Below, piece after piece: positions 18,641 through 57,960 of a DNA stretch of 64,000 nucleotides (position 1 is its first letter; every line of letters starts with the position of its first letter). Below the pieces are notes generated by a model, which worked only from the letters and a program-made list of their open reading frames with translations, searched no databases and was not told where the DNA came from. The stretch is from contig CM071568.1 in assembly GCA_036426205.1 (NCBI GenBank), positions 41,418,784-41,482,783 of the forward strand, written 5' to 3'. The translations under genes were made by a program, and so were the position numbers. This stretch comes from Ascaphus truei. Taxonomy: Eukaryota > Chordata > Amphibia > Anura > Ascaphidae.

Positions 18641-18930
18641 TGGTTGGCCACCATATCAATTACAGCTTTACCTTAAAATACAAGCCTGGTCCCAAGAATA
18701 TTGGGGCCGATGCTCTGTCCAGAAGGCCCGGGTTGGACCCAGCACCTGAAGACGGAGAATGGGAAGAGATTCCTGGTCCAGGGATTCATGCCATGTGTTC
18801 CACGGCTGCCATTCTGGAAGGAAAAGTAGCCTTCTCTGAACTTCGAGTGGTGGATTCCCTGGGATATAAGTCAGAGGAACTTCAAGTTGAGTACTGTCAT
18901 CTTGAATCAATGTCCATAACTCAAGACTCT
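18641..18930 (+). pseudogene. Gypsy RNase H / connection remnant
   Basis: Contains NYSFTLKYKPGPKNIGADAL and SRRPG, the RNase H end of gypsy pol, then a divergent linker. It is truncated at 18930 by an unrelated repeat; the zinc-binding and catalytic core of integrase are missing. Confidence 0.7.
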
Positions 18931-19075
18931 GTAATACGGTGTAAAACAAGAAACAAAGAAGTCCAGAGCAACATCCAATGTGACAAAAATACACAGTGAA
19001 ATACCTATATATCTCTTGAAAAAGGGTAATTTATTTAACCCCTTGGCAAAAGCGTATAAGCCTGCGAGCCATTTT
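18931..19075 (+). repeat. Direct repeat copy 1 (flanks the antisense PLE)
   Basis: The ~145-bp segment from GTAAAACAAGAAACAAAGAA to AAAGCGTATAAGCCTGCGAG recurs at 21519-21665 with few differences. The CTTGAAAAAGGGT ... CAAAGCGTATAAG part resembles a degenerate hammerhead-bearing PLE terminus. Confidence 0.8.
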
Positions 19076-21984: not shown

Positions 21985-22396
21985 ATGGCACTATACCGTC
22001 GCGGCCCCTTTTATTCTCCAACATCACCACATTTTTCCGGGATTTTTTTCGAATGCCGCGCACTTCACCGCGTTCATGCCGCATTCATACCGCATTCATG
22101 TTGCATTCACAGCCGCGGTTGATGCGCGGTTGATGTGTTTATTGAGAACGGTTCGGATTTAATAGTTGCAATTCTTCGCGTGTCCGCCAGATGGCAGATA
22201 TTCATGAATTGTAATGCGCATGCGCTTCAGTAATGTGTCGACTTGCAGGTTTTTCGTTTAATAATGATACCACAGTGGTCTATTGTAAATTGGCCTTGGG
22301 ACTGAAGGAAGAGGTTACAATAATGTATCAATTTAGGCTTTTCACATTAAAGAAAGACAAGCACCAGTTTCTGGTTATTGTCCAGAGAGTCCCACC
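21985..22396 (+). promoter_or_regulatory. Upstream region of forkhead gene, copy A
   Basis: Homologous, in reverse, to 55277-55690 upstream of copy B. Shared words include CGCCAGATGGCAGATATTCA, TGAATTGTAATGCGCATGCG and ATGCGCGGTTGATG. The start CACTATACCGTCGCGGCCCC with TTTTATTC may be a transposon end. No TATA box stands out. Confidence 0.5.
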
Positions 22397-22669
22397 ATGA
22401 GTGTACAAGTGCAGCCCGTGTTCCAAAAACCCGACAGAAAGTACACTTATTTAATATGGGCCGCGATTAATGCAACAGATGATAAGATGGCAACAGTTGT
22501 TCAAATTTATCAGTATTTTATCGAAAACTATGATTTTACAAATTTTCGCCAGCTTCTCATGTGTGGAAGCGTGCAATAAGGAAAAAGTTATGTAGCGATC
22601 CATGTTTTTTTCGTATTGATCCCGAATTTATTGGAGGGTATTGGTGTGTATCACCGGGTTTTTCCCGTA

Positions 22670-23063
22670 CTGCACCGACACACTTTATTCGAGCAAATAC
22701 CCAGTATGTACCTGGCAGATACCTGGAATGCGCCGCTCCTCACCTCTGACAAGCCCCGTTGCGTTTGCCTTCCCAGCCTGGGTTCATGCCTGGCTGACGG
22801 GCGGCTGATCTGTTAAATGATAATGATTAGGATTTAATAGGCTGCAATGCTTCGCGTGTCTACCAGATGGCATAAATTCATGAATTGTAATGCAGTTTAT
22901 ATATATACTGTGCAGTATTGCAGCCAGCGGGAATAAAATGCTTCAATCCCTGCCTGGAAAATAACCCAATGCACTCGGGCAGAAAACAGTCACAAACCTC
23001 AATACACCCGGGTATACCCGAATTCGTGGGACTAGCCGAGCTCGAATAAAGTGTGTCGCCAGT
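22670..23063. mobile_element. MITE inserted in forkhead gene copy A
   Basis: The 19-bp inverted repeats CGACACACTTTATTCGAGC (22676-22694) and its complement (23040-23058) are perfect. GTA flanks the insert (22667-22669, 23064-23066), and copy B shows the unoccupied site CTGTATCTATGAT. The inner sequence TTCGCGTGTCTACCAGATGG and ATTCATGAATTGTAATGC matches the forkhead-gene upstream region, so the MITE is related to the unit it disrupts. A TA or GTA target fits Tc1/mariner-like insertion, unproven. Confidence 0.75.
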
Positions 23064-23396
23064 GTATCTATGATGCAGACGGCAAAAGGCGAAAGGTCGT
23101 GTTAAAAGTAAGAAACGCCAGTCGCTGGCAAGCAATGCACCAGCACCAGCACAGGCTTCCAATAACGGTCCAACCGTCAGTGACAACCCTTTCTGTCTGT
23201 CCCCGCACGGATACCTGCAGCCTGAGACGGATTTCGCGTACAGTTTCGAGCAAGCTTGCATGTACCAAAGCGATTTCCAGCCTCATCAGCTGACTACAGG
23301 TGGACTAGTCCCACTGTCACCTGTCAACGTGTATGATCAAGAATACTGGACTGGCAGTGGCCCGGCGCCGGTGCCAGCTGAATGGGAAATTCTATG

Positions 23397-23723
23397 GTGA
23401 GTAATGTTGCTGTGTTTTATCTGTTTTTTTTATTTTGAAAATATCAATATCAGTGCGATTCAAAAGTCAAGAGATTCTCCTGTAAGCAATATCATTGGCT
23501 GAGCGGCTTCTACAGTACTGTAGATACTGAACAATTGGTGGAACGCTAGGCGCATGCGCATTGGAACCTTCTTGAAACGCATATGCGTGTCATCACATCG
23601 ACAGTAGGCGCATGCGCGTGTGAACAGGAGATGCCCCCCGAGAAAATTATTGGTGGGACTGGCTGGGAACTTCTTTAGGGGACTGACCATTACAGTAAAA
23701 CTTTTATTTTTGTTTTTCCTCAG
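23397..23723 (+). other. Conserved intron at the 3' end of the forkhead gene (copy A)
   Basis: Donor ATG|GTGAGT and acceptor TTTTTGTTTTTCCTCAG match in both copies (327 bp here, 330 bp in copy B). The intron contains several GCGCATGCGC-type alternating stretches and TTGAAACGCATATGCGTGTC. Confidence 0.6.
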
Positions 23724-24351
23724 AAAAGAAAACTTTGTCATCTCAACGGCAAATGGAGGGATTTCGATGGATAATATCGCTTTGTGTAACAATGCCTGCA
23801 CATTGCTGAATCGGATTTAAAAAAAACACGTACCGGAGTCTACAGTTTATATATATATACTTTATAATAATCCTGAGAAAAAAAAGGATGCATTTATTCT
23901 ACATGTATTCCAGTACATATGTGTATTCTATACCCGTACAGCATGTATTGTTTTAATATACTTTAGTATATTTAGTATACTTAATGTAGAGTACTGAGCA
24001 TGCCTACAGTATACAGTACAGTACAGTATGCCTGGACAGTACTATACATTCTAGAAACACTGTATTTCTTTACAGTATAAAAGGAGACAATGGAACAATT
24101 TAAAACAAATCAACATTTTCTTTTAATGCTGGAGTAAGTACAAAAACATTTATTTACAAATACTGTACAATATAAAAACATTTTAAGTGCACAGCAATTC
24201 AAAACATCAACAGGTGTATGGTTTACTGCTAGTGAAAACATTTATGTACAGAAAGTCAAAACATTTACAGTAGGATGGTGTACAGAACAGTCAGTCAGGC
24301 CTGCACAACTCCAGTCCTCGAGGGCCGCAAACAGGCCTGGTTTTCAGGATA

Positions 24352-24691
24352 CAACAAAAACAACTGTCCTGCGCTTCGGTGTGCAGCAATGGCACCTATG
24401 GTGTCAAATGGTCATGTTGTGCTGGGAGAGAGTGAGCTTGGGTATGACCACTATAGTGACTGGAGTAGGTGGGAAATGAAAACACCCTTACCTATATTGC
24501 GACTTCAGTCTGGGTCCTGCTCTCCTCTGCTCCACAGCTTCCTCTCGGAAGCCCTATTCTAGAGGGTGAAACGCGTAGAGGGGGAGACAGGGGTGAAGCC
24601 CTAGTGTGTTCGGTGCAATAAAGTTTTGTTGAAGTCATCCGGGAGTTGCTTGGAGTTTGTCATGCGCAGTTGCGCCGGAGCCCTTCCATTT
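24352..24691 (+). mobile_element. Solo PLE terminal unit inside a hairpin MITE, 16-bp target duplication
   Basis: The 340-bp insert is flanked by exact copies of CCTGGTTTTCAGGATA (24336-24351 and 24692-24707). It holds a hammerhead-like motif at 24541-24580 and an AATAAAG near 24618, and no coding region. It interrupts a hairpin repeat intact at 24968-25068. Confidence 0.75.
24541..24580 (+). ncRNA. Hammerhead-like motif in solo PLE unit
   Basis: CTCGGAAGCCCTATTCTAGA followed by GGGTGAAACGCGTAG: stem II GCCCT-ATTCTAG-AGGGT is well paired and the GAAAC box is intact, but CUGA has become TCGG. Confidence 0.5.
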
Positions 24692-25107
24692 CCTGGTTTT
24701 CAGGATAACCTGTTTGCGGCCCTCGGGGACTGGAATTGTGCAGGTCCTGTGTGTACAATATGTAAAAACATTTCTTTATTACTACAAGTTAAAACACGCA
24801 ATATCTCGTTTATTTAAGTACAGCAAGTCAAAACATGTACAGTACAGCACAACAGTATGGTGTTATTTAAAAAAAATCTTTATTCAGAAAATTGAAACAA
24901 CGCAACATCTCCTTTAATAAAGTACAGCAAGTCAAAAACATTTACAGTAGGATGGTGTACAGAACAGTCAGTCAGGCCTGCACAACTTCAGTCCTCGAGG
25001 GCCGCAAACAGGCCCGGTTTTCAGGATAACCTTTGAAAACCGGGCCTGTTGGTGGCTCTCGGGGACTGGAACAAAACATTTACAAAAAATAAACAACAGT
25101 TGAACAC

Positions 25108-26378
25108 TCACGCAAATGCGTACCCCACCAGATTGTCCTTCCAGGGCCGATGCCTTTTATGGCGCAAAATGCCATTAATGCAGTCTCGAACGCTTTTCAC
25201 TAAGGATGTGTAATTGAAAAAAAGCGCCGCAATTCCTCCACAATTGTCTTTCTTAAATTATCAGGAAGCGCCTTTTTTTCGCGACTTACTTCATAGTTCA
25301 CTTTGTAGGCCCACTCGCAGTACACCAAGTAGGACACATGGTGCTTAAAAATTAACAAGGCTCGCGCAGGATGATGTCGGGCACCGTATCGATGCAAGCG
25401 AATGTAGGTTGGGTTCTGTAAGAGGGTGTTCTTCCGTGAGCTGGTGTGCTTGGGGCGGCGGGCGAGGGTAGGTTGTCTGGGAGGAAGCTTTCCTCCTGTC
25501 TTGGTCGCCGTGTTGTCTCCTGGCGTGGTCTTGACGGGGTTGTCATGTTATCCTCCTCCTCAACGGCATACATGTACACAAAATCTTCTGGTGGAGGGGG
25601 TGCGCTTGCTGATGGAAGGTGGTGGAAGGTCCCATTCATCACATCCATGCCACCCTCCTGCTCCGACGTCGGGGATATAGGGGCATGAACACCGAGCAAA
25701 TGATGTATCCCCGCTATGTCAGTCTCTATCTTCTCCATCTTGATCCATCTTCTGCATCCATTGATCCATATTTAGCATGGTCTCCAGAAGCAGATCTATT
25801 TTTGCCAGCACAATAGAGTTCTCGGGGGTATCCACACTTATCCCATTCAGCATGCGGTCTAAAGAGCTGGTTCTTGTGCATGGCGTGCTGTGGACATCAT
25901 TGTGGATAGGTGCTACAGAGGATGAGATGGGGGTTCCATGTAGAGAAGCGGCAGCATCGCCGAAGAAGGGTGGAGGAGGTGACCTGTGGATTTCCGGGAG
26001 AGGAGAAGCGGCAGCGTCGTCGAAGAGGGATGTAGAAAGTGACCTGTGGATTTCCGGGCGAGAAGCGGCAGAGTCAACTAAGCGCAATGGAGAAAGTGAC
26101 CTGTGGATTTCAGGGGCACCAGCGGCAGCGGCGTGGAAGAGCAGTGGCGAAGATGGCCTGTGGGTTTCCGGGAGAGTGGCGGCAGCGCAGTGGACGAGTA
26201 GTGGAGAAGATGGGCTGTAGATTTCAGGGAGAGCGGCGGCAAAGTCGTCGAAGTGTATTGGAGGAAGTGGTCTGCGGGTTCGATGGGTTGGCTGCCATTT
26301 GTTTTGCGTTGAGTGTACATCACCGTATTTCTTCTTGACATAATAAGGCGTACGTGTGTAGCCACCTGTAAACAGCAC
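25108..26378 (-). pseudogene. BEN-like domain gene, copy A (frameshifted)
   Basis: Minus-strand gene in at least four frame segments (26378-25719, 25738-25352, 25397-25200, then to TGA 25110-25108). A CTGTTTACAG|GTGGC acceptor near 26367 suggests an upstream exon. Order: basic YVKKKYGDVH; six ~19-residue repeats (LPEIHRS, SPLLF, AAA); a predicted helix with METMLNMDQWMQKMD then GIHHLLGV; QEESFLPDNLPSP; and a C-terminal domain with RALLIFKHHVS, VNYEVSREKKALPDNLRKTI, VRDCINGILRHKRHRPW. Spacing of (A)R-LL-F, KK-L, L--I and RFF resembles the BEN DNA-binding domain; this is my inference. It faces the forkhead gene convergently. Confidence 0.5.
25918..26290 (-). repeat. In-gene tandem repeat, 57-60 bp unit, ~6 copies
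   Basis: CCTGTGGATTT(C) and variants recur near 25982, 26041, 26099, 26157, 26214 and 26271. In translation each unit is about 19-20 residues (PEIHRS-SPLLF--AAA). Spacing in multiples of three keeps the frame. Confidence 0.8.
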
Positions 26379-27119: not shown

Positions 27120-28200
27120 GCTGCATCTGTATATGCCTAATGTTGATATAAACTATAATATTGCAATAAATGTCCCTATTTCTCCAATGCCAAAAATATG
27201 CTTTCATTGTAAGTGAATAAGAGAGAAGCAGTATGAATATATGATACATTAGTAGGTGCTACACATCAAAGACTATACACAATATACAAAAAGGTCCTTA
27301 TTAGGACTAATTTAAAGGGGAACACTTTAACACATATAACACTTCTAAGGCAGGATCATACCTTTGGTAAGTGAATCTTTTTTTCACAAGAAAACATCTT
27401 TCTGTGTTGCACCCAGCATAAAGTAACAAAGTCCATAATATAATAAAAGCAAACTTTACTTGCTAACATTCAAAACATAAATCAGAATGTTAGTATCTCT
27501 GTGTAATTGACCATTTTTTACATGCATACATCATCAGGTGGATGTACTGTATAAAAGAGAATCACATTACAAGGTATTTATCATTTTACTCCTATAGCTA
27601 CAGGCTTGCAATGTCAATAAAATGCTGCAGTAGTTGAAAAAGTTCCCAGAGTTTTAGCTCTAGTAAATATAATCTTACTGTATGTAAAAACACACACTTT
27701 TTGTATTATGTGCTCATTTTTATTTCAAATCTCATGAATTTTAGAAAAAAGAAACTGAATAGTTTTACAATTTAAGGGTTGAATGAAGTTATATGTTGGC
27801 TTCCTTACTTCTTCAGTATATATTCTGGGTACATTAAACTTTCCTGATACCGATGCCCCAAAAAACAGTTTTTAAATAGTAAGTGTTGTTGAAATCCTTC
27901 TTAAATTGCTCATTTGACACTTATGCTGCAGCATAAGGGTTTGGTATGGCCGAGTCCCATACAACAACGGTATGTTAACCTTTATTTTATTATGACACAT
28001 GGACTATTGCCATTACACTGAGTGTCTTTTTGCTGCATTCATAAAGCACTGGGTCTCATTACTCTACCTGCTGGCTGATACAGTTTCCTGCTACCATGAT
28101 ATGTGGACTCATACTCATTATTGTCTAAAGGTTCAGATTTGGATTGAGCACTGTGATTGGGACTTATGCCCCAAACCACCGACTAGATCAGGTACACATG
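27120..28200. other. Unassigned stretch
   Basis: AT-rich, no supported feature. Confidence 0.6.
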
Positions 28201-28225
28201 TGGTGGTGCATCTGAGCAATCTTTA

Positions 28226-30337
28226 TTGTACTGGTGTGGTGGCTGCCCCGCAGAGCGGAGCCCCATGTACGATAATTGGTACGAGAGCGTGACAACCCAA
28301 GGAATGGAGGATCCGCGTGGTGCGGAGAGCCCAAAATGGCGACCAGAGGCTGATGGGGAAGGCACCCGTGGCGTGCGCCCCACTGAAGAGCAAACTGACG
28401 CTGAGCTGTCTTTAACCAATCTGCTCTGGAGTGGAGCGAAGGCCATGGCTGCCCCGTTTTTGTCCTGTCTGGGACACCTTGAAGAGTGTGAGGACATTGT
28501 GATAACTGGGGGGGAACCCAGTGAGAAGAGCAAACAAACTGACATTTCGGGCTTAAAAGCCAACCAAAATGGCGGTTCCCGCTTGCTAGGGAGACCGCAT
28601 GGGCCAGTCGCAGAGAAAATGGCTGATCCAGAACTTGCAAAAAGCTGGCCGGGAATGGCGCGAACAGCAGAGCCCCGCCCTGATGGGGGGCATGGCGCGA
28701 AAGCTATCACTGCGCCTTCATGGACAGTGACTCACTCGACCCCTGTGCTGAGTCAACCGCTTAGTCTATGGGACCCTCCCCTGATTTCCACCAGGGGGAG
28801 TAACTTTCAATTATGGCCTGTGGGAATGCACCCACTGGGCCCAGGGACTGATATCCAGACGGCGCCACTGCAAGAAGTAGTTCCGGCCGCGGAGGTAACG
28901 TGCAAAAAGGAGGGATATTTTGCACGGAAAGCAGCTGCCAGGAGAAGGCGGGAACTAGCCGCGGCCCAAGAATCCCACTCTGATGAGGAAATTGGCGCGA
29001 AAACGCAGACCGCGCCCACCAGGACTGAGAAAGGCGCGGCCTTAATTAAGGGGCATGCTATTCCCCTGTGGGATCTGCCCATAATTGCAACCCCTGGGGG
29101 CGGGTTCCAGCTATGCCAGCGGAAGGAGGAGCCGAAGCAGGAAGTGGCTGGTCCAGAAGCTTCTACCGGTCAGTTGCGAGGAACCACTGACCTGGAGAGA
29201 CCCATACTGAAAGTGGTCCCTACCAAAAGAATGGCCTGCTCCTCCACTGTGGGAACTATGGTCTCCACCCAGCCCTACTCGGTACCCGGCGGGGTACTGG
29301 TAGTCAGGGTGGCTAACACCGAGACGGTGGTCGGGCTCTGCCTGCAATGCGGGCTGCCCGGAGGCATTGTTAATACGGCGGCACGCTGCCCACAATGCGG
29401 GACATTATACTTGTGGCCAATGCCGACGTTCATTCCAATTCAATCTGCTGACCCCCCGGGGGATACGGCTAGGCGCTCCGCCGAGTCCCCTGGTGCACTG
29501 TGGATCAATCGTGCAAGTCCCGGAGAAAGGGGACTGGAGTCGATTAAATCGGCTGGGTCAGCAGCAACTGAGACGGTCGGGTCACCCCCCGACCGCGCTG
29601 AGAAAAGACTATCGCCCCGATCGGTGACCCCTAAATCGGGGAAGGCAGATTACTCGGATGAGGATCTCCGCGAGCTAGCGGAGGTGAAATCAAGGCCCAG
29701 GACAGAACCGGGGAGGACGACACCCCGTAGTGTGAGTAGCAGCCTGGAAAGCAGGGCGTCCCCCGCAGATCGGCGAGCCGAGAGACGGAGTCCCTCCGCT
29801 TCAGGACACGGTGGCGACGGGCGAGAGACGCCTACACCCCTGCGGAATGGTAAGAGAAAGCCACTCACTTAACTTGCTCCGGTAGACGGTGTGGCGGAAA
29901 CAAGGCCGTGCCAGGCCCAAGACGCACGTGCAGAGGAGATACCACTTCCGGTGGAGACGACAGCGGAGCTTCCGGATGTCGTCATTGAAGAAGAGATCCC
30001 GCATGGGGGTCCTACCCAAGATGGCGGAGCTTCCGGTTCCGGTGAGGACATCATTTCCGGTGGCAACGGCGGAACAGACGGGAAAGATGCAGAAACGCTT
30101 CGGCGATCGGGTGAAGGTCCCCGATCACCTCAAAGGCCCAGGAGTTGGATGGGAGACCCACAGACGGATGAGGGTGAGCTATCCTCCTTGGAGCAGTCCA
30201 TGGACAGCCGGGAACGGGTCGTAGTCCCGTGGCGTATCCCATCTTGCCCCTACGCCCAACCCCACGCCCTAGGTAAAACCCCTGCCCCCATCACATGTTC
30301 CCCGTTGCCGGTACCAGGTGTTGAAGTAGAATCGTGA
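28226..30337 (+). pseudogene. ~703-codon GC-rich frame of an LTR element, unrecognised
   Basis: One reading frame is open from 28226 to 30337 except for a single TAA at 29870-29872; the first 548 codons are uninterrupted. I do not recognise the protein. It is Pro/Ala/Gly/Arg-rich and probably disordered. A ~100-residue unit is repeated: GAKAITAP ... LSLWDPPLISTRGSNFQLW near residue 155-200 and GAKTQTAP ... IPLWDLPIIATPGGGFQLC near 252-297. A zinc-ribbon-like CLQCG ... CPQCGT pair lies near 373-392. The last codon abuts the LTR at about 30338. A TGG-starting PBS-like word (TGGTACGAGAGCGTGAC) lies at 28278 within the frame. No RT or integrase is present. Confidence 0.5.
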
Positions 30338-31210
30338 TTGTCACGCCAAGGTCAGGGAGCGGAGAGTGGAGGAAGGTCGAAGTCCAAGCCGTGTTCGAGG
30401 GAAGCCAGAGAGTGTGTAATCCGAGGAGTGCCAAGGTCGGGAGCCATAGGGGTAGTCGTACGAGCCGTGTCAGAACCTGTGAAATCACCAAGAGTAGACA
30501 GAGTATCATCCATGCAGAGACTATGTCGAGCGAAGACTGAGAGTACAGAGAAGCTAGATAAAGCAGGGAGGTCCAATCAGGAGCGGGGGCAGGTCAGGAG
30601 GAACTGCAGGAAGACTCTTCGGATTGGTGCAGCCATTACAAGCCAGGTGAATCTTAGTACTGCAGTGAGTATGCCCGCGCGGCATGCGGGGGGTGGAGCC
30701 TGAGGTCCGGAGGGCAGGAAGAAGAGTGTGCACTGCACGCGCTCCGCAAGTTGCGTGTGACCCGCGCCGGAGGAGACTGCACGCGTGCATGCGGGGAGAA
30801 GGGAACTCGCCCGGCGCTGAGGAGTGGGAATAGCAGCGGAATCGCCGAGGGGGGTGATCCCGCAACGGCGGCAGAGATGAGGAGCCGCATAGGCCGGTAA
30901 GGTAGGGCTGTGCCGTGCGTCCAGGGTTTCCCTGAAGGTAGAGAGTGTTCTGTGTGGGGGACGCAGGGGACGCCGATTCCTAACATGTATACCCTGTTGT
31001 GAGTGTGATTATTTGGGGTATACAGTATAAGTATACCGGTTCCCGTGAGGAGTCATTCTGGCTATGCTTGGATCCTAATGAGTGGAGGCGCTCCACCCAT
31101 TCATCCCAGGCTCCCAAGGAGTGGAGGCTTAGGCCTCCTGTACACCTAACCAGTATCACCATAGCGCATAACACCTGCAGTTTCCCTTAGGGGTAGGGAA
31201 GGGGTGTTAC
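30338..31210 (+). mobile_element. LTR of gypsy-type element (~870 bp)
   Basis: Ends GGGTGTTAC and contains TTCCCGTGAGGAGTCAT and GTGGAGGCGCTCCACCC, shared with the LTR at 14184-15127. The start near TGATTGTCACGCC is approximate. CpG-rich from 30660 to 30960. No flanking duplication was found. Confidence 0.6.
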
Positions 31211-42116: not shown

Positions 42117-42850
42117 ATGAGAAAAAGAAAAATGGAAGAATTTTTAAAAGAGTTTCTGTGCGAGCAGACAAGACAGCAGGGACTGTTAATGCAGGAGCAG
42201 ACCAAACAGCCGGGACAGTTAATGTAGGAGCAAGCCCAACTACTGTTGCAGCAGCAAACCCAGCTCCTAACCCAGCAGCAGGCAGCACCGGATGAGCGGA
42301 TGGCCAGGATGCTGACCCAATTCCAGGGGTCTGCCAGTCCAGAACTTGCAAACAAACCCCCGGTCCTCCTGAGGAAAATGGCTCCGAACAAGGATCCAGG
42401 GGCTTTTTTACTGACGTTTGAAAGGGTTGCCGAAGCTCAAGGCTGGTCTGCAGATCGCTGGGCAACTGCTTTGGCCCCGCTCCTCATAGGAGAAGCCCAG
42501 GCCTCATATCAGGGCCTCCCAGCAGATCAGGCAATGGACTACCAACAAGTAAAAGCCGCCATACTGGATCGCTTAGGTCTGACCCCAGAGACCTACCGGC
42601 AGCAGTTCAGGAACCTGAAGTACACCGCTAAGATGAGACACCGGGTCCTCGCTCAGCGGTTATTGGACATGTGAACTCGCTGGATACCCGAGGAGCGCAC
42701 TAAGGAGGCAATTCTTGAGCAAGTTGTTTTGGAACAATTCCTACAGATAATACCCCCTTCAGCACACTCGTGGCACACTCGTGGGTAAAACGTCATGCTG
42801 CTGAAACTTTAGCTTTGGCGGTTGAGAACTTCCTTGAGGCCGAGGATCAG
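42117..42850 (+). pseudogene. Gmr1-like gag with SCAN-type capsid domain, broken
   Basis: The frame opens at ATG 42117, with an in-frame TAG at 42225 and a TGA at 42672 where related elements have Cys. A Gln-rich start (LLQQQTQLLTQQQ) leads to the capsid part NKDPGAFLLTFERVAEAQGW and QASYQGL, then the SCAN-like block FRNLKYTAKMRHRVLAQRLL, EERTKEAILEQVVLEQFLQ, HSWVKRHAAETL, VENFLEAED. An 11-bp tandem duplication of GCACACTCGTG (42762-42783) causes a frame shift. SCAN domains of vertebrate zinc-finger proteins are thought to derive from Gmr1-like gag. Confidence 0.82.
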
Positions 42851-43700
42851 GCGAGTGCCCTGGACCTGACGGATCCAACTTCACCGGCACTTGCGGACAC
42901 CCAAAAAGGGAGATCGGAAAAACGGGGAAACTACGGCCCCTCCATACGCATCCGCCAAGTGCCACGAAACGAGCAGTCCTTCCAACAAAGAAGAAGTCAA
43001 AACGCCGGGCACCGCCGAGACCCTCATCCCCTTCCTGATGTCGGCTCATCGCCAAATAAGAGGAACTTCAGAGGATGTCGCACACAGGACCCATCGGAGG
43101 TCTGGTCTCCAGTATCCAGTCCCGCTGAGCGGTATCCACGGCACCCTCCGGCAAGGGAACCCTCTCCATGTTCAGCCTGCGGAGAACAAGGCTACCGTCA
43201 TGTGGACTGTCCACAGATGGAATGCTCCTTCAGCAGGACTGTCGCCTCTGCCTTCCCCAGAGAAAGTGGCAAGCCCTGGCTACTTCCAGTCCAGATTGGT
43301 GGTAAAACTGTCCAGGCCCTTATAGATTCAGGTTCTGGAAAAACGCTGGTCTTCCGGGAACTGTAACCGCCTGACGTGCTTTCCTTTGACTCCCCATGGA
43401 GTATAGAGTGTATACACGGCAATGTAAAAGGGTATCCGACGGCCAAAATCCTGCTACAGGTGAAAGGTCAGGAGGCCAGGATCGAAGTAGGAGTCGCTCT
43501 TTGGCTCCCTGCCCCCGTTTTGCTCGACCGTGACTGGCCTTTCTTTTCAAACCTAATGGCTCCAGTCTCTCAGGAGGAGCCTCATTCTCTGACTCAGGAG
43601 AAACCTGGTAAACTGTTCCCCTTTTTGGCCGACCTGTTCCCCAGGTTCCAAAGACTCGGAGGCAAAGACGCTGTGACAAACAGTACTGGTTGCAGAAATC
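42851..43700 (+). pseudogene. Gmr1-like zinc knuckle and aspartic protease
   Basis: The zinc knuckle reads CSACGEQGYRHVDC at about 43170-43212, with Tyr at the His position. The protease active site reads ALIDSGSGKTLVF near 43316-43357 (DSG), with a flap-like region HGNVKGYPTAKI and VLLDRDWPF farther on. A TAA at 43364 and a frame shift separate the two parts. Confidence 0.72.
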
Positions 43701-43862
43701 TGGGACTCAAGGTGGCCATACTAATAGGCATAAGTCACAAGTCATGACTGGGGATGGCCAGAAAGGGGAGAGATAGGCCCTGGAGATTTACCAGAGCTAT
43801 GTCTCCCTGATTTTCACCAGAGGCAGAGGGAAGACCCAGTCCTGGCCAAACAATATGATAAC

Positions 43863-45118
43863 GTGGTAAAGATTGATGACCAGATATTGAATGCACAAGG
43901 GGTAATGGTGTTCCCTCATTTTGAATTGAAGAATGATCTCCTGTATAGGGTGAACAAGCAGACACAAACAGGGGAGGTCACCAGAAAAATATTGGTTCCC
44001 AAGGCGTTTGTTAAAACTGTCTTCATCCTAGCCCATACTGTCCCTTGGTGTGGTCACCTGGGTAGAGATAAAACCTTGGACCGTATTTCGTTCCGCTTCT
44101 ATTGGCCAGGGATGCATAGTGACATTGCTAAGTTATGTGCGGCATGTCCTGAGTGCCAGCTAACTAGTCCGAAGGGAGAAAAACCAGCCCCCTTGGTTCC
44201 TCTACCCTTGGTGTCCGTTCCCTTTGAGAGGATTGGTGTAGACTTGGTAGGACCGCTGGAGCCTTCTGCGAAAGGACACAGGTTTATTCTCGTAATAGTC
44301 GACTATGCAACAAGATATCCTGAGGCGTTCCCCCTGAGGACAGCAACAGCGTTCCCCCTGAGTAGCCAACAAATTGTTGGAGCTGTTCTCATGGGTTTGA
44401 CTTCCCCAGGTTATGTTGACAGACCAAGGTACAAATCTTATGGCTAAACTGATGCAGGATGTCTTAAAATTACTAGAGGTCAAGTCTGTTCGGACATCTG
44501 TCTACCATCCACAAACTGACGGATTGGTGGAAAGATTTAACCGAACTCTAAAAAGTGTGCTGAGAAAATTTGTAGATTCAGAGAAGAGAGCCTTGGATGA
44601 TCTTCTCCCTTTTCTGCTGTTTGCAGTGCGGGAAGTTACCCAGGCCTCCACGGGATTCTCTCCATTTGAACTGCTGTATGGCCGCCAACCCCGGGTATCC
44701 TAGACCTCCTAAAGGAGTCCTGGGAGGAACAGCGGTCCCCTTCTAGGAATACCCTGCAACATGTACTAGACCTTAGGAAGCGCCTAGATGTGGTCGGCCA
44801 TTTTGCTAGGGAGAATCTTAGATCAGCCCAGGATAGTCAGGAGAGACATTACAATCAGAATGCTCGCATGAGAGTGTTTCACCCAGCAGACCAGGTGATG
44901 TTATTATTACCCAGTTGTGAGAGTAAACTCCTAGCCAAATGGCAGGGCCCATTTGAAGTACTCCGCCGCACAGGTGATGTGGATTACGAGATCGCTCAAC
45001 CAGTCCAGGAAGGGTAAACAAATTTACCATGTGAACTTGCTGAAACCCTGGAAGGTGCAGCGGTCTCTATTCATCCACCCGGTGGAGGAGGAAATGGACC
45101 TGGGTCCTCAGCCCCCAC
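43863..45118 (+). pseudogene. Gmr1-like integrase, frameshifted
   Basis: The integrase inserts element cDNA. The zinc-binding part has HTVPWCGHLGRDKT and CAACPECQ (HHCC). The core DDE residues are all visible: GVDLVGPL, LTDQGTNLM and GLVERFNRT. The C-terminal part has HPADQVMLLLPS, KLLAKWQGPFEV, YHVNLLKPW. A frame shift near 44405 and others near 44700 and 45016 break it. Integrase follows only ~160 bp after the protease region and no RT lies between, the domain order reported for Gmr1 elements. RT should come next but the element stops near 45130. Confidence 0.85.
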
Positions 45119-48881: not shown

Positions 48882-49092
48882 GAGAGAGAGAGATGAGAGA
48901 GAGAGACGAGAGAGAGAGACGAGAGAGAGAGACGAGAGAGAGAGAGAGACGAGAGAGAGAGTGAGACAAGAGAGAGAGAGACGAGAGAGACGACAGAGAC
49001 GAGAGAGAGAGACGAGAGAGATGAGAGAGAGACGAGAGAGAGACGAGAGAGAGAGACGAGAGAGAGACAGAGAGAGAGACAGAGAGAGACAA
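48838..49092. repeat. GA-rich satellite, (GAGAGACGAGA)n
   Basis: About 250 bp of GAGAGA interrupted at intervals of 8-22 bp by ACGAGAG or ATGAGAG. Frames give Arg/Glu or Ser/Leu repeats and are not genes. Confidence 0.95.
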
Positions 49093-49095
49093 CGC

Positions 49096-49548
49096 GCGAT
49101 CACAATGGGCAACACAGTCGCAATGTGGTCTATATATTTATTGCAGCGTTCCATGGTGAGTACATCGTTCCAAAAAACTCATTATGCCTTTCGCCAACTA
49201 ATCCTTTTTGGAGGGTTTCACCACTTTCCGGATATGGTCCTTCAGCTGATGCCAGACCATTTCGATCGGATTGAAGTCTGGCGATCTGTCATTGGAAAAA
49301 AAGGGCAATTAGTTTAAGAGATACAGTACACAGTAAAAACAGTGGGGAAAAAATGAGACACGGTTACCGCACTTACTCCGTTGGCGTCTTCACCCAGTTG
49401 ATGCCGCGCTCAAGGATATGCGCTGTTGACGCTGTGTGCTTCGGATCGATGTCCTGGTAGAAACGGTGACCATCCGGGAACTCGCGTGTGATGTATTCCA
49501 CTATCTCAGGCACAATTTTATCTTGGAAGAAAGCTTTATTCATGATTC
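49096..49548 (-). pseudogene. Intron-bearing Tc1/mariner-like transposase, copy 2
   Basis: Exon 49548-49377 follows an acceptor (TTCTTGTTATAG) and codes [29 protein letters not shown] (second catalytic Asp; Ile replaces the usual Asn) and [10 protein letters not shown] 91-bp intron (49376-49286, GTAAGT...CAG) follows. The next exon (49285-49096) codes SPDFNPIEMVWHQLKDHIRK with the catalytic Glu, then a TAG after KPSKKD, an inserted T that shifts the frame, and MERCNKYIDHIATVLPIVIA. The N-terminal exons are missing, and a CR1 lies upstream. Both splice positions match those at 3.5-3.8 kb. Confidence 0.78.
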
Positions 49549-49587
49549 CTATAACAAGAAAAGAAAAGTGCTCAAAAAACTGCACAA

Positions 49588-49842: not shown

Positions 49843-50073
49843 AGTTACATAGTTACATAGTTACATAGTAGATGAGGTTGAAAAAAACGTACGTCCTCAA
49901 GTTCAACCTATGCTACATTTAGACAACAGATACTTTATACTATATCTATACTTACTTATTGATCCAGAGGAAGGCAAACAAAAAACCCCATTAAGGGGAA
50001 AAATGAATTCCTTCCTGACTCCAAGAATTGGCAATCGGATTAATCCCTGGATCAAAATCCTTCCCATGTATAC

Positions 50074-52380
50074 TTATTTGGTATATCCCTGTATACCTTT
50101 CCCATCTAAAAAGATGTCCAACCTTTTTTTGAACAAATCTATTGTATCTGCCATCACAGTCTCTATGGGTAATGAATTCCACATTTTAACTGCCCTTACT
50201 GTAAAGAACCCTTTCCTTTGTTGCTGGTGAAATTTCCTTTCCTCCAACCTTAAGGGATGGCCCTGAGTCCTTAGTACTGCCCATGGGATGAATAGTTCTT
50301 TTGAAAGCTCCTTGTATTGTCCCTGAATATATTTGTATATAGTTATCATATCCCCTCTTAGACGCCTCTTTTCTAATGTAAATAAATCTAATTTAGCTAG
50401 CCTCTCCTCATAAGTTAGAATGTCCATACCCTTTATTAATTTGGTGGCTCTTCTCTGCACTCTCTCTAGTTCCATAATGTCTTTTCTTAGGATTGGTGCC
50501 CAAAATTGTACTCCATATTCAAGGTGTGGTCTTACTAATGCTTTGTAAAGGGGCATAATTATGTTTACTTCCCTTCCATCCATTGCCCGTTTGATGCAAG
50601 ATAAGATCTTGTTTGCCTTTGCAGCTACTGCATGACATTGGGCACAATTGCTAAGCCTGCTGTCTACAAGCACTCCTAAATCCTTCTCCGTCAAGGATTC
50701 CCCCAATATATCTCCATTTAATTTGTAAGTCGCCTTTTTATGCTTGTATCCCAAATGCATAACTTTACATTTATCTCTATTAAACCTCATCTGCCATTTA
50801 CCTGCCCACGTTTCCAGTCTCTCCAAGTCCTTCTGAAGAGAAATTACATCCTGCTCTGATTCTATTACCTTACACAATTTAGTATCATCAGCAAAGATGG
50901 AGACTTTGCTCTCGATCCCAACCTCAAGGTCATTAATAAACAAGTTAAAAAGCAGGGGTCCCAGTACCGATCCCTGAGGTACTCCACTCACGACTTTAGC
51001 CCAACCTGAAAAAGTTCCATTTATGACAACCCTCTGTTGTCTGTCCTTTAACCAGTTTTCAATCCAGGTGCATATATTATTACTGAGTCCAACTTTCTGT
51101 ATTTTGTACACCAACCTCTTGTGTGAAACCGTATCAAAAGCCTTTGCAAAATCTAAGTAGACTACATCAACGGCATTACCCTGGTCTAGATTCCTACTTA
51201 CCTCCTCAAAGAAACAAATAAGGTTAGTTTGGCAAGATCTATCCTTCATAAATCCATGCTGACTATTACTAATAATGTTATTTTCCATTAGGTATTCCTG
51301 AATATTATCCCATATTAAACCTTCAAGTAGTTTCCTTACTATTGAAGTCAGGCTTACAGGTCTGTAATTTCCCGGTTGTGATCTAGCTCCCTTTTTAAAT
51401 ATAGGCACCACATCTGCTTTACGCCAATCTTGTGGTACTGAGCCTGTGGAAATTGAGTCCTTGAATATTAAATATAATGGTTTTGCTATTACTAAGCTTA
51501 ACTCCTTGAGAACTCTTGGATGTATGCCATCGGGGCCAGGTGCCTTATTTACTGTAATTTTTTCAAGTCGCTTATGAACTTCTTCCTCAGTTAACCAATT
51601 GTTCATTAATATGGAGGTTGTGGCTTCCTCCTGCGGCACTACTATTGAACTTGATTCTTCCCTGGTAAACACAGAGGCAAAGAATTTGTTTAATACCTCA
51701 GCTTTTTCCTTATCTCCAATAATCTGCCCACCCATCTCACACTGAAAGGGTCCTATATTTTCTTTTCTCAATTTTTTGTTATTAAGGTACTTAATGAATT
51801 TTTTAGGGTTGACCTTACTTTCTATTGCAATCCTTTTTTCATTATCCATTTTTGCTAATTTGATTGCCCTTTTGCAATTTTTGTTACATTCCTTATCATT
51901 CTGATACGATGTCTCTGTCCCTTCTGACTTAAAGAATCTAAACGCCTTCCTCTTCTTGTCCATTTCCTCCCCTACCTGTTTATTTAGCCACATTGGTTGT
52001 GACTTATTTCTTTTATACTTATTACCCAAGGGTATACACTGATAAGTGTGCTTTTCTAACAATGTTTTAAAGACTGACCATTTATCTTCTACATTTTTCC
52101 CTGCAAAAACATCATCCCATTGTATTACTACTAGATTAGACTTCAGTTTATTAAAATCTGCCTTTCCAAAGTTGAAGGTCTTTGTTGAACCCAAGTAATC
52201 TGTTTGTTGATAATTTAATTCAAATGAGACCATGTTATGATCACTGTTACCCAAATGTTCCAGGACTTGAATATTTGTTATTACTTTAAGATTGTTTGAT
52301 ATGACCAAATCCAGAACTGCCCCTCTCCTGGTTGGTTCCTCAATAATTTGGGTCATATAATTGTCTTTAAGCACCCCCAA
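50074..52380 (-). CDS. CR1 ORF2: endonuclease C-end, reverse transcriptase
   Basis: A continuous 768-codon frame from ATG 52380. Residues ~1-70 are the end of the apurinic-like endonuclease (SDHNMVSFEL, catalytic Asp-His). The RT follows: NKAPGPDGIHPRVLKEL near 280, DVVPIFKKG, NYRPVSLTSI, VYLDFAKAFDTVSH (motif A), SGVPQGSVLGPLLF (motif B), SIFADDTKL (motif C, FADD intact), and the C-terminal LEYGVQFWAP ... ERVQRRATKLI. All RT catalytic residues are present. The true start lies upstream in 52718-52353; this ATG is internal. The enzyme copies CR1 RNA at a nicked target. Confidence 0.88.
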   Translation of the reverse strand: MGVLKDNYMTQIIEEPTRRGAVLDLVISNNLKVITNIQVLEHLGNSDHNMVSFELNYQQTDYLGSTKTFNFGKADFNKLKSNLVVIQWDDVFAGKNVEDKWSVFKTLLEKHTYQCIPLGNKYKRNKSQPMWLNKQVGEEMDKKRKAFRFFKSEGTETSYQNDKECNKNCKRAIKLAKMDNEKRIAIESKVNPKKFIKYLNNKKLRKENIGPFQCEMGGQIIGDKEKAEVLNKFFASVFTREESSSIVVPQEEATTSILMNNWLTEEEVHKRLEKITVNKAPGPDGIHPRVLKELSLVIAKPLYLIFKDSISTGSVPQDWRKADVVPIFKKGARSQPGNYRPVSLTSIVRKLLEGLIWDNIQEYLMENNIISNSQHGFMKDRSCQTNLICFFEEVSRNLDQGNAVDVVYLDFAKAFDTVSHKRLVYKIQKVGLSNNICTWIENWLKDRQQRVVINGTFSGWAKVVSGVPQGSVLGPLLFNLFINDLEVGIESKVSIFADDTKLCKVIESEQDVISLQKDLERLETWAGKWQMRFNRDKCKVMHLGYKHKKATYKLNGDILGESLTEKDLGVLVDSRLSNCAQCHAVAAKANKILSCIKRAMDGREVNIIMPLYKALVRPHLEYGVQFWAPILRKDIMELERVQRRATKLIKGMDILTYEERLAKLDLFTLEKRRLRGDMITIYKYIQGQYKELSKELFIPWAVLRTQGHPLRLEERKFHQQQRKGFFTVRAVKMWNSLPIETVMADTIDLFKKRLDIFLDGKGIQGYTK

Positions 52381-52718
52381 AAACCTGTTCCCTTTTGTTG
52401 TATTGCTAATCTCAAATTCCGAAAAAGAGAATAACCCTCTAAATTAACTGTCCAGTCATGAGTTTCATCCCACCATGTTTCAGTAATGCCTATTATATCA
52501 TACTGCTCCCTTGCAGCTATTAATTCAAGCTCCCCCATTTTATCTGTCAGGCTTCTTGCATTAGCAAGCATGCGTTTCAGTTTTTTTTCAGCCTGTACTA
52601 TTATCTTATCTGCTCCTTCCTTTTTGCTCCCACTTTGTTTAGTCTTTAGAAGTTTTCTAGTATTATCTGTATTTACTATGGGTGTCTCACTGCTTGTCAA
52701 ACTTGCACTTGCCCCCAT
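52353..52718 (-). pseudogene. CR1 ORF2 N-terminus (endonuclease start)
   Basis: Contains SGSKKEGAD, LKRMLANARSLTDKMGELEL, then AAREQYDIIGITETWWDETH, the endonuclease start with catalytic Glu (ITETW), and DWTVNLEGYSLFR. Immediately after, the sequence jumps to TTKGNRFLGVLKDN in another frame, so about 100 endonuclease residues are deleted near 52415-52425 and the frame shifts. The two ORF2 parts can no longer form one protein. Confidence 0.82.
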
Positions 52719-52795
52719 TCTACCTCCATACCACCTTGTATCCTCATCTATACCATTTAGTTCATTATCTGTTTCATTCCCCTCCCCCCTCCATC

Positions 52796-53330
52796 CTAGT
52801 TTAAAATCTCCTCCAACCTTTTTAGCATTCTCCCCCCTAGCACAGAAGATCCCTCTTCATTGAGGTGCAATCCGTCCCTAGAATATAGATGGCATCTCTC
52901 AGAAAAGGAGTCCCAGTGCACTAAAAACCCAAACCCCTCCTTCCTGCACCACTTTCTTAGCCATGCATTAACCTCCCTGATCTCTGACTGTCTCCCTGCG
53001 GTAGCGCATGGCACTGGTAGTATTTCAGAAAATACTACCTTGGAGGTCCTTGCCTTAAGCTTTTGGCCTAGATCCCTGTAATCATTTTTTAGGACCCTCC
53101 ATCTTTCTCTAACTTTGTCATTGGTGCCAACGTGTACCAAGACCACCGGGTCAATCCCAGCCCCCCCCAACAATCGGTCTACCCGATCCGCAATGTGCCA
53201 AACCCGAGCACCAGGGAGACAACAAACTGTTCGGTTCATGTGGTCCTGGCATCAGATTGCCCTATCTACCTTCCTAATAATGGAGTCCCCTACCACCACA
53301 ATCTTTCTTTGTATCTGAGCATCCTGAGTC
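52796..53330 (-). pseudogene. CR1 ORF1 esterase (SGNH hydrolase), one stop
   Basis: From 53239 the frame is open to 52796. Upstream in the same frame, KIVVVGDSIIRKVDRAI gives the GDS catalytic Ser block (about 53274-53290), interrupted by a TGA at 53254-53252. Later landmarks are VLVHVGTND (Gly and Asn of SGNH), VFSEILPVP and SRDGLHLNEEG (catalytic Asp-His pair). CR1 ORF1 proteins of vertebrates carry such an esterase domain; its role in retrotransposition is not settled. Confidence 0.82.
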
Positions 53331-53361
53331 CCCTCTGTGCTGGAGGAACTATTCCCCTGGC

Positions 53362-54000
53362 TGCTGTTGTGCTGAACTGTACTGTACATGTTTTGACTTT
53401 CTGTACTTAAATAAAGGAAATGTTGTTGTGTGTTTTTAACTTGTATTTATACCGAAATATTTTAACTTGCTGTGCACACACACATGACCTGCACAGTTCC
53501 AGTCCCCAAGGCCCGCAAACAGGCCCGGTTTTCAAAGGTTACCCCGAAATCCGGGCCTGTTTGCTGCCCTCGAGGACTGTAGTGGTGAAGGCCGGCCTGA
53601 CTGACTGTTCTGCACACCATCCCACTGTAAATGTTTTGATTTGCTGTTCTTTAATAAAGGAGATGTGGCATTTTGTATATTTTATAAATAAAGATTTTTT
53701 TTTTATAACATGTGACTGTAAACCATACTGACTGACTGTAAATGTTTTTACTTTCTGTAAATAAATGTTTTCACCAGCAGTAAACCATACACCTGTTGGT
53801 GTTTTGAATTGCTGTGCCCTTAATGTTTTTACATTGTACAGTATTTGTAAATAACTGTTTTTGTACTTACTCCACCAATAAAAGAACATGTTGACTTGTT
53901 TTAAATTGTTCCATTAGCTCCTTTGATAATGTAACAAAATACAGTGTCTCATTAGAATGTACACTACTGTCCAGGCATACTGTACTGTATACTGTAGGCA
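53362..54000 (+). repeat. AATAAA module array and hairpin, copy B
   Basis: Modules of the form TGTTTTGAYTTNCTGT followed by AATAAA recur near 53390, 53630 and 53740; a hairpin with CAAACAGGCCCGGTTTTCAA and its complement lies at 53490-53585. This is the reverse-orientation homologue of 24100-24960. The AATAAA signals face the forkhead gene, so they would serve a plus-strand gene formerly on the left, now displaced by CR1. Confidence 0.65.
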
Positions 54001-54282
54001 TGCTCAGTACTGCACATCACAAGAGTATTAAAAAAAATAGAAGACACATACTGTACTGTACAGTATGTACTGGTACTGTATAGAAGACACATACTGTATG
54101 TACTGTAATACATGTAGAATAAATGCATACTTTTAATTTTTTTCGGGTTTATTACACAGTATACTGTATATAAAAAAGTATTGTATACTGTACGGTCGGA
54201 AAACATCAGCATACTGTTTCAGGTATTCTATCCTAATCAATAACAACAGGCACTAAACTGTAGACTCCGGGACGTGTTTTTT

Positions 54283-54365
54283 TTAAATCCGATTCAGCAA
54301 TGTGCAGGCATTGTTACACAAAACGATATTATCCATCGAAATCCCTCCATTAGCCGTTTTCTTTT
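54283..54365 (-). other. Second exon of forkhead gene, copy B
   Basis: Follows the conserved TTTTTGTTTTTCCTCAG acceptor. About 16 bases present in copy A are deleted here. Spliced to the upstream donor, the junction would read CTA TG|A, a stop, so this exon is probably 3' UTR. Confidence 0.5.
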
Positions 54366-54691
54366 CTGAGGAAAAACAAAAAGAAAAGTTTTACTGTAAT
54401 GGTCAGTCCCCTAAAGAAGTTCTCAGCCAGTCCCACCAACAATTTTCTCGGGGGGCGTCTCCTGTTCACATGCGCATGCGCCTACCGTCGATGTAATGAC
54501 ACGCATATGCGTTTCAAGAAGGTTCCAATGCGCATGCGCCTAGCGTTCCACCAATTGTTCAGTATCTGCAGTACTGTAGAAGCCGCTCAGCCAATGATAT
54601 TGCTTACAGGAGAATCGCTTGACTTTTGAATCGCACCGATATTGATATTGTCAAAATAAAAAAAACACAGAAAACAATACGGCAACAATAC

Positions 54692-55276
54692 TCACCATAG
54701 AATTTCCCATTCAGCTGGCGCCGGTGCCGGGCCATTGCCAGTCCAGTATTCTTGATCATACACTTGATAGTTGGCAGCGGTCAGCTGATGAGGCTGGAAA
54801 TCACTTAGGTACATGCAAGCTTGCTCGAAACTGCACGCGAAATCCGGCTCAGGCTTGCTGGACAGACAGCAAGGGTTGTCACTGACGGTGGGACCGTTAT
54901 TGGAAGCTGGTGCTAGTGCTGGCGCATTGCTTGGCAGCGACTGTTGTTTCTTAGTTGGTTTTAACACGACCTTTCGCCTTTTGCCGTCTGCATGATCATA
55001 GATACAGGAAAAAGCCGGTGATGCACACCAATACCCTCCAATAAATTGTGGATCAATACGATAAAAATATGGATCGCTACATAACCTTTTCCTTATTGCA
55101 CGCTTCCACACATGAGGAGCTGGCAAAAATTTGTAAAAGTCATAGTTTTCGATAAAATACTGATAAATTTGAACAACTGTTGCCATCTTATCATCTGTTG
55201 CATTAATCGCGGCCCATATCAAATACGCGTACGTTCTGTCGGGTTTTTGGAAAACGATCTGCACTTGAACACTCAT
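54692..55276 (-). CDS. Forkhead-domain protein, copy B (intact 194 codons)
   Basis: The best-preserved copy. Residues 11-86 align with the forkhead domain: KPDRTYAYLIWAAI (helix 1), KMATVVQIYQYFIENYDFYK (helix 2), VWKRAIRKRL (helix 3, residues 56-65) and FIGGYWCASP (wing). In classical forkhead proteins helix 3 reads W-NSIRHNLS; here Asn and His, which contact bases, are Arg and Lys, so specificity should differ. A basic patch KRRKVVLKPTKK (99-110) may be a nuclear signal. The C-terminus SFEQACMY, QPHQL, YDQEYWTG, AEWEILW is shared with copy A. TGA 54694-54692 overlaps a GTGAGT donor. A captured transcription-factor domain in a repeat is my reading; no host Fox subfamily fits well. Confidence 0.72.
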   Translation of the reverse strand: MSVQVQIVFQKPDRTYAYLIWAAINATDDKMATVVQIYQYFIENYDFYKFLPAPHVWKRAIRKRLCSDPYFYRIDPQFIGGYWCASPAFSCIYDHADGKRRKVVLKPTKKQQSLPSNAPALAPASNNGPTVSDNPCCLSSKPEPDFACSFEQACMYLSDFQPHQLTAANYQVYDQEYWTGNGPAPAPAEWEILW

Positions 55277-55690
55277 GGCGGCGGGTCTCTGGAGAATAAC
55301 AGAAACTGGTCTTTGTCTTTCTTTAATATGAAAAGCCTAAATTGATACATTATTGTAACCTCTTCCTTCAGTCTCAAGGCCAATTTACAATAGGACACTG
55401 TGGTATCTTTTTTAAACAAAACACTTGCAAGTCCACACATTACGGAAGCGCATGCGCATTACAATTCATGAATATCTGCCATCTGGCGGACACACGAAGA
55501 ATTGCAACCTATAAAATCTGAACCATTCTCAATAAACGCATCAACCGCGCGTCAACCGCGCATGACCCGTGGCAGAGATCGCAAAATGAATGCGGCATGC
55601 TCCCGGTGAAGTGCGTCGCATTCGAGAAAAAAGACAGGAATAAAGCGGCGATGTTTTAGAATAAAATGAGCCGCAGCAGTAATGTATAAC
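55277..55690 (-). promoter_or_regulatory. Upstream region of forkhead gene, copy B
   Basis: Homologous to 21985-22396 in reverse. It holds GCATGCGC words, CGCCAGATGGCAGATATTCA, and CAACCGCGC repeats. Conservation between copies is as visible here as in the coding part. Confidence 0.5.
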
Positions 55691-56448: not shown

Positions 56449-56679
56449 AATTCAAAAGTATCAGAAGAAAATGTACCGCTCAATGGTCATTAGATGCGGG
56501 GACATGGCACGCTGGGTGCTCTCCCTCCCCCCGGCGGTGCTGCTGTGGCGGGACACAGCTGATCTCTATCTGAATGATCTCTTGTTCAGATACTGTATTA
56601 TGCATTCTTCCATCTGCTTCCATGTATCAACCCCGATTCTACGGACACCGAACCTGCTTTCTTCTGCTCTGCTGACCAC

Positions 56680-57960
56680 GAGAAAGCAAAAGGCGGAAGC
56701 TGTTTCCAAGCCAAAGCCAAAGGTGCTTAAATAAAAGGTACCAAAGGCTCCCAAGGTAAAGATCCCTGGCCCTTTGTATGTGAAGAAGTAAATAGCCAAA
56801 ATTGTTGATGATGAAGTTGTTTGGACGGGCCGCTCCAGTGCCCTTGCACCCACTGAAGTCGAATCGGATGTCCCAAACTTTTCACTGCTATCACCCAGCT
56901 CCACCTATTCCCAAACATCTTCCCGCTCTGACCCTTTGCCCACCGATACTTGTCCGGACACCCCCAGCTCAACTCCTCCAGCACCCAGTCACGCTAATGC
57001 TCCTCCAGACACCCCACTCACCTCCTCCAGCACCCAGCTACACCCAGCCACACCGTTGCTCATCCGGATGACAGCATCACTCCTTGCACCAGATCCAGCT
57101 CAATCGTCCGCATGCTGGATGTTTTTAGTGGTATCGAAATGACTGACAACACAACCGAGCAATACAGGCACAGAATGGAGACCAAGATGGATCGTCTTTT
57201 TGAGACAATGGAGAGAATGGATAGATGCATGTATGTTCGTCTGGAGAATATTGAGAGGAACACCGTGGGGCTCTATTCTTTGCTTGGAGTCCCTGCCCCT
57301 GTATGTCAGATGCAGGAGCAGGAGGGTGACATGGAGGCACCTTATTCTCCCATGGAGGAACTGCATACCTTCCCCCCCCCCCCGTGCACCCTCACAATCC
57401 CTTGATTTGACTTTCACGGTGCCAACACCAAGCATACCATAGAACCGCCCATGCTTACCCCCTCTCTCTTCAGGATATAGTCTTCTGTTGGAGACGATGA
57501 CAACCCTGGTAAGAGCTAGGCCACAACAGGAGGAAAACATCCTCCCAGATCATCTACCCCTGCCCGCTGCCAGAAGCTCACCTGGTCCAGCAACAAGGAT
57601 TGTACAGCTCCCAGACAAAATGCTGAACAACCTCCTGCAGAGCATCCAGGAGAAATACAAGACCTGATGCGGAGGATACCCGCACAAATTTTCCCAGTTT
57701 ATTTTAAACAGTTTTGAGATGTACAGCGAGTGGAGACAACATGTAAATTATGAAGGCAATAAGTACAAGAAGGGGCTTCCTGCAAATTTAAGAAGAGCTA
57801 TTATGGACAAAGTGAAGCGCTTTTTCACTAATAACGGTCTTCTTCTGAGAAACGTGAGAGACGGCATGAATTGGCTTTTGAGGCATAAAAGGGCTCTTCC
57901 CTGGAATCCATCAACTTGCTGGAAGACTACACGTGTTAAATTTATGTAAGGAATCCGTTC
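56680..57960 (+). pseudogene. BEN-like domain gene, copy B (frameshifted, split by LTR)
   Basis: Homologue of the minus-strand gene at 25.1-26.4 kb. Order: Lys/Pro-rich start (VSKPKPKVLK, KAPKVKIPGPLYVKK), a Ser/Thr/Pro-rich part, a predicted helix (METKMDRLFETMERMDRCM, LENIERNTVGLYSLLGVP), QEENILPDHLPLP, then the C-terminal domain with MYSEWRQHVNYEG, KKGLPANLRRAIMDKVKRFF and VRDGMNWLLRHKRALPW. Stops and at least three frame shifts are present. The last codons before the LTR insertion resume after it (58753) and reach a TGA within about 20 bp. Confidence 0.52.

Follow-up and report, generated by a model that had tools for sequence, protein, structure and literature searches.

The window, the 64,000-nucleotide stretch of Ascaphus truei DNA analysed here, holds two copies (A and B) of a repeat that carries a forkhead gene, a partner gene and a transposase gene, each copy being damaged in its own way. 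The features are as follows.

53364..55679, minus strand: left portion of copy B, with promoter region, forkhead gene, 3' intron, AATAAA and subterminal repeats
55670..55681, minus strand: left end of copy B, TA at 55680-55681 and then CTGCTGCGGC (pattern match; shared by 28 of the first 30 loci)
54692..55276, minus strand: intact forkhead ORF of copy B (Pfam PF00250, ORF check)
54695-54366, minus strand: 3' intron of copy B, its GTGAGT donor overlapping the stop codon and its CAG acceptor ending at 54366 (by eye)
54153-54148, minus strand: AATAAA of copy B
49862..53363, minus strand: retrotransposon interrupting copy B, presumably a LINE (ORFs between 53251 and 50074; limits approximate)
49376..49549, minus strand: transposase exon 4 of copy B, second catalytic region (tblastn, 86% to the transposase of locus L032)
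49092..49284, minus strand: transposase exon 5 of copy B, with a stop and a frame change (tblastn, 64-76%)
21996..26355, plus strand: copy A, from its left end (TA at 21994-21995) to the partner gene
22397..23400, plus strand: broken copy A forkhead gene (matched by tblastn at 22397-22765 and 23074-23400)
22670..23064, plus strand: MITE-like insertion, flanked by TA, within the copy A forkhead ORF (copy B has the empty site)
25114..26354, minus strand: copy A partner gene with a broken frame (68-77% to that of L032 by tblastn)
56561..57904, plus strand: diverged relative of the partner gene (tblastn, 35-58% by piece, with 56561-56824 a weak match at E 0.034)

A sequence-only reading of the window had described two copies about 32 kb apart on opposite strands, and this arrangement stands, with the extent of the copy A forkhead gene revised to 22397-23400 (+). 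The DNA of the two copies is 88% identical in two blocks around the forkhead gene and 81-84% identical in later blocks, and the copy A forkhead gene is broken by the 395-bp TA-flanked insertion together with frame changes. Copy B had been called intact, which is true of its forkhead ORF but not of the element around it: the alignment to the element stops at 53364, element-like repeats return near 49861 (by eye) on the far side of the LINE, and tblastn found neither the partner gene nor transposase exons 1-3. What is left upstream of this interruption is 88-92% identical to loci L031, L033 and L035. The upstream region, intron and partner gene that had been ascribed to the repeat all proved real, the partner lying on the minus strand of copy A. 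The partner-gene relative at 56561..57904 belongs to an older, second family of this kind.

Other repeats share the window. A still older, decayed relative of Tc1-type transposases lies at 3170-3940 (+), at 30% identity and in stretches spaced as if by introns. By eye, ORFs at 4161-4586 and 21265-20357 resemble endonuclease and reverse-transcriptase parts of Penelope-like elements, and those at 15900-19000 and 42228-44447 resemble gypsy-type gag and pol remains. A GC-rich region at 28187-30703 (+) contains long open frames of 561, 154 and 121 aa, the first of which gave no Pfam match at E<=1.

The forkhead ORF of copy B runs for 585 bases from ATG to TGA (55276-54692, minus strand) and encodes 194 residues without an internal stop. 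When this protein was searched against Pfam with hmmscan, Forkhead (PF00250) was the sole family returned, at 49.8 bits (E 3.7e-13) against a gathering score of 27 bits, with residues 10-86 aligned to profile positions 1-80 of 88. A PDB search with the single sequence reached forkhead chains at a best E of 3e-7, and a profile built from five element proteins reached FOXL2 at E 1.1e-11; going by name or alias, these hits are forkhead proteins, with one entry labelled eIF3B. Collectively, these profile matches confirm the forkhead domain that had been proposed from the residue pattern. An AlphaFold2 model made from three input sequences had a pLDDT of 37, too low to contribute. In the protein database, two of the 29 word-sharing candidates matched the forkhead query, both from Ascaphus truei; at the sensitivity of these searches the forkhead and partner proteins matched Ascaphus proteins only, and the phage records searched gave no match.

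Closer inspection of the recognition helix reveals WKRAIRKRL in the element protein, as opposed to WQNSIRHNL or WQNSIRHSL in the aligned FOX proteins. The element thus has R and K where FOX has N and H, and the absence of the usual residues was weighed against our preferred reading. The N and H of the FOX recognition helix contact bases in FOX-DNA complexes; their replacement by R and K has therefore probably altered the target sequence.

Searching the 2.82-Gb genome that holds the window for the forkhead protein returned 17,312 loose candidates, a figure that is not a copy count; all of the best 150, which lie on many contigs, are 84-100% identical to the protein over nearly its full length. 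When the query was P0001, an Ascaphus truei protein, the best 150 were scored from 14,264 loose candidates. On contigs C1-C5, 83 places from each of the two lists were compared and none coincided, so there are at least two forkhead subfamilies. Members of both have an open forkhead frame with in-frame length changes, only open copies having been picked. The many dispersed copies and the common TA-flanked left end found in the window's own genome bear out the claim of a dispersed repeat.

That left end consists of TA followed by CTGCTGCGGC, written in the alignment as CTGCTGCGGCTCATTTTATTC. Of the first 30 loci, 28 reach it when the region upstream of the ORF is aligned (L022 lacks the end and L008 matches in part only), with TA exactly before it in 27 of the 28 and one base off in L015. 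The right end, located by following two copies to where matching stops, reads GGCCACCACTG, also written GTTTTAGACTCAGGTCGGCCACCACTG, and then TA; both copies have TA outside both ends, and their flanks differ. The inverted ends are about 11 bp long and imperfect (CTGCTGCGGCC and CAGTGGTGGCC, matched by eye), and an automatic alignment of the element ends gave a weak result for one copy and a spurious one for the other. For a related MITE the empty site is also present, copy B reading TGTATC where copy A has TA, the MITE (22670-23064) and TA again. The repeat is a TA-flanked DNA transposon. MITEs flanked by TA and with ends like those of the element lie at 1631-1989 and 7928-8267 of L032 as well as at 22670-23064 of the window, the last matching the left region of the element at 75% identity over 171 bp, and they may be mobilised by the element's transposase.

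From one TA to the other, the order is left end, forkhead gene (+), partner gene (-), five-exon transposase gene (+) and right end. In L032 the element measures about 8.25 kb, counting a 340-bp MITE, and lacks a stretch between the forkhead and partner genes, about 1.3 kb long in L072 and 2.6 kb long in L071; the complete element, as pieced together from these three loci, would therefore be about 9 kb or more. The forkhead gene has a 3' intron, joined in copy B by an AATAAA signal, and the element contains tandem and subterminal repeats.

The five transposase exons and their splice signals were read by eye, and in L032 both the transposase and the partner frames carry stops. With the L032 exons joined by hand and one stop written as X, DDE_3 was the only significant family (E 4.1e-15, 56.3 bits vs 28.6), and the catalytic D, D and E are present. 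In a somewhat extended version, where X replaces two stops, 32 residues separate the second D from the E, a spacing that fits no named family (DD34E to DD38E and so on); the name 'DD32E' was not found in the papers listed by our narrow literature search. Two helix-turn-helix regions were seen by eye, and Pfam returned no helix-turn-helix or other DNA-binding domain in the N-terminal part of the L032 protein, which counts against the preferred reading. Searching with the two-stop version yielded 280 relatives at E<=0.001 among 667 candidates, and several relatives have helix-turn-helix domains according to precomputed Pfam accessions. Among the matches listed (120 of the 280) are three predicted Ascaphus proteins at 59-86% identity, a Latimeria protein at 47% and fish Tc1-type proteins. 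The element is a Tc1/mariner-like transposon with its own spliced transposase and with the partner gene antisense between forkhead and transposase.

The antisense partner gene encodes a protein of some 500 residues that has tandem repeats, a coiled-coil-like stretch (by eye) and a conserved C-terminal region. Neither Pfam nor PDB returned a significant family for the protein, and two predicted Ascaphus proteins were its only matches among the 7,993 candidates scored, those with the most words in common. A BEN identity had been suspected by eye for the C-terminus; Pfam gave no BEN match at E<=10, a search in which its filters drop weak matches, and PDB gave none either, so we do not call this region BEN. 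In a separate predicted protein, P0124 (Ascaphus truei LOC142465264), six tandem modules resembling the second helix-turn-helix-like region of the transposase are fused to the N-terminal part of the partner protein; P0124 may represent a variant of the element or a host gene derived from it.

We favour, at a probability of roughly 0.6, a composite Tc1/mariner-like transposon that has captured a FOX gene as a putative accessory DNA-binding protein. The forkhead domain normally belongs to animal transcription factors. Tc1/mariner-type transposons as a rule encode just a transposase, which makes a forkhead gene and a second accessory gene unusual cargo. The transposase would cut the element out and paste it at TA, an activity to which the TA flanks, the empty site of the related MITE and the DDE_3 match all point. 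The forkhead gene would derive from a host FOX gene and now be the element's own, consistent with its constant position and orientation in many copies. Its product would serve the element as an accessory DNA-binding protein, putatively occupying repeats in the non-coding and subterminal DNA, and this binding may aid expression, escape from silencing or transposase assembly. The protein would act in trans, as the Myb-like protein of Harbinger or the VANC protein of VANDAL does. If correct, this is a new route by which a simple cut-and-paste element can acquire a regulator, here a developmental transcription-factor domain retained next to the transposase of a high-copy family, and the role of accessory DNA-binding proteins in transposons becomes testable in a vertebrate.

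The best surviving rival, which we consider unlikely though far from negligible, treats the forkhead gene as a passive passenger that was captured once and has since been copied with the element, drifting without a role. Within subfamily 1, mean dN/dS is 0.50 over the whole protein and 0.43 over the forkhead part (17 intact ORFs, 136 pairs), these ORFs coming from the first 30 loci, which are the best-scoring hits and hence biased towards conservation. Variants scored against the majority codon stand at 99.5:50.5 (non-synonymous to synonymous) when single and 28:17 when shared, somewhat fewer non-synonymous changes than the 2.3-3.4 to 1 expected. Between the subfamilies (17 x 5 copies), dN/dS is 0.51 for the forkhead part and 0.78 for the tail; this lesser divergence of the forkhead part speaks against mere drift, as do the open frame in many scored copies of two subfamilies and the retention of the fold signature despite far divergence from FOX proteins. 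The near-fixed differences between subfamilies, at 13:4 in the forkhead part and 24:7 in the tail, are nonetheless compatible with neutrality, the expectation under no selection being about 2.7-3.8 to 1 for the forkhead part and 2.3-3.4 to 1 for the whole; because they show no synonymous excess, this test does not support protein constraint. A dN/dS of about 0.86 within the five subfamily-2 copies likewise suits a passenger. Given the best-hit sample and the failure of the near-fixed differences to repeat the signal, we do not claim purifying selection as proven, and the selection data are suggestive only of a function for the forkhead protein.

Candidate binding sites bear on the same question. 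The palindrome GCGCATGCGC, a word chosen after being noticed, occurs 2 and 3 times per TA-bounded unit against 0.00 and 0.01 expected; it is present in both the left and the right non-coding parts of the element, with three in the left part of copy B (55679-54000, minus strand). It equals the host NRF1 consensus and may thus mark a host promoter, possibly as a borrowed germ-line or housekeeping element, and not a target of the forkhead protein. Canonical FOX sites showed no clear enrichment in the element, which was weighed against the preferred reading.

The forkhead gene and the transposase could also belong to two independent elements, a forkhead-bearing repeat with a Tc1 insertion beside it. 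This view draws on the single ORF of the Tc1 elements described in PMC6875036 and on several copies that contain one part alone, but the positional data leave it very improbable. Querying with the last exon of the transposase yielded 13,273 loose candidates; of the best 150, a list biased as top hits, 149 are without a stop. When the two best-150 lists were compared on the contigs found in both (C6 omitted, its places being at least 14 Mb apart), seven forkhead-transposase pairs lay 2.2-10.1 kb apart, each with the transposase on the forkhead strand and downstream of the forkhead; another three pairs, separated by 29-31 kb and in one case on opposite strands, are too distant to count. From the transposase side, five loci were chosen non-randomly, all on the plus strand, and four have the forkhead gene upstream (L071/L069, L072/L070, L080, and L079 with L081). 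The copies at these four loci are partly decayed, and the partner gene falls within the stretch read in three, that of L080 ending before the partner position. At the fifth locus, L078, the stretch read is free of element sequence, which was weighed against a single composite element. This identical order and strand argues against nesting, as does L036, where one TA-bounded, internally deleted unit of 5.6 kb contains the forkhead side together with the transposase-side end; moreover, the forkhead-side and transposase-side ends are both TA-flanked in two copies.

Some forkhead copies might instead have been domesticated into a host gene family of transposon origin, given the intact ORFs at many places and the predicted Ascaphus proteins in NCBI; with copy B sitting in a decayed element beside a LINE and nothing seen that sets it apart, we regard this as highly improbable. 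Segmental duplication of an ordinary host FOX gene, suggested by the presence of two copies within one window, is refuted by the 150 scored copies across many contigs, their common TA-flanked left end and the transposase in the unit.

The composite transposon with a captured forkhead gene also invites a bolder extension, which we hold to be doubtful: the captured FOX factor and the partner would together bind repeats in the non-coding DNA of the element and act as its sequence-specific switch or anti-silencing shield in the germ line. If true, it would be a vertebrate parallel to the VANC anti-silencing proteins of plants, and host genes might have been rewired through hundreds to thousands of copies.

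Narrow searches of PubMed Central, with Repbase, preprints and most subscription papers outside their scope, found no transposon carrying a forkhead gene; the word 'forkhead' is absent from PMC12822217 and PMC7386202 and appears in PMC9341512 in the reference list only. Among known systems, the element resembles Tc1/mariner transposons, as described in PMC6875036, in its DDE_3 transposase of about 325 aa, its TA target duplication and its MITE relatives. That paper puts the superfamily at 1.3-2.4 kb and describes a single ORF in Incomer (DD36E), whereas our element has a five-exon transposase and two further genes in about 9 kb; its second D and E are 32 residues apart, as opposed to 34. Instead of a single ORF of 1.3-2.4 kb, L032 already holds three genes in about 8.25 kb. 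Further differences from Tc1/mariner are the short, imperfect inverted ends and the helix-turn-helix regions, recognised by eye only.

Harbinger elements use a 3-bp target, as opposed to TA in the element, which differs from them also in transposase superfamily, in having a forkhead and not a Myb/SANT protein, and in its third gene. The likeness lies in a second, faster-evolving DNA-binding protein encoded next to the transposase, Harbinger pairing its transposase with a Myb-like protein (PMC9179366). We considered and rejected Harbinger membership, DDE_3 being the sole significant transposase family and Pfam finding no Myb match in the partner or forkhead proteins. The VANDAL transposase differs from that of the element, and VANDALs are plant elements without a forkhead; an anti-silencing role for our element is putative. 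What the element shares with VANDAL/VANC is a transposon-encoded protein with non-coding tandem repeats as possible targets, tandem target repeats being a feature of VANC systems (PMC5735166). Like FOXL2, FOXA, FOXC, FOXK and FOXP, the element protein has a forkhead core (residues 10-86) followed by basic residues; unlike animal FOX proteins, it is encoded by a mobile element and carries the altered helix described above. Taken together, these comparisons suggest that the element would work most like a Tc1/mariner transposon to which Harbinger-style helpers have been added.
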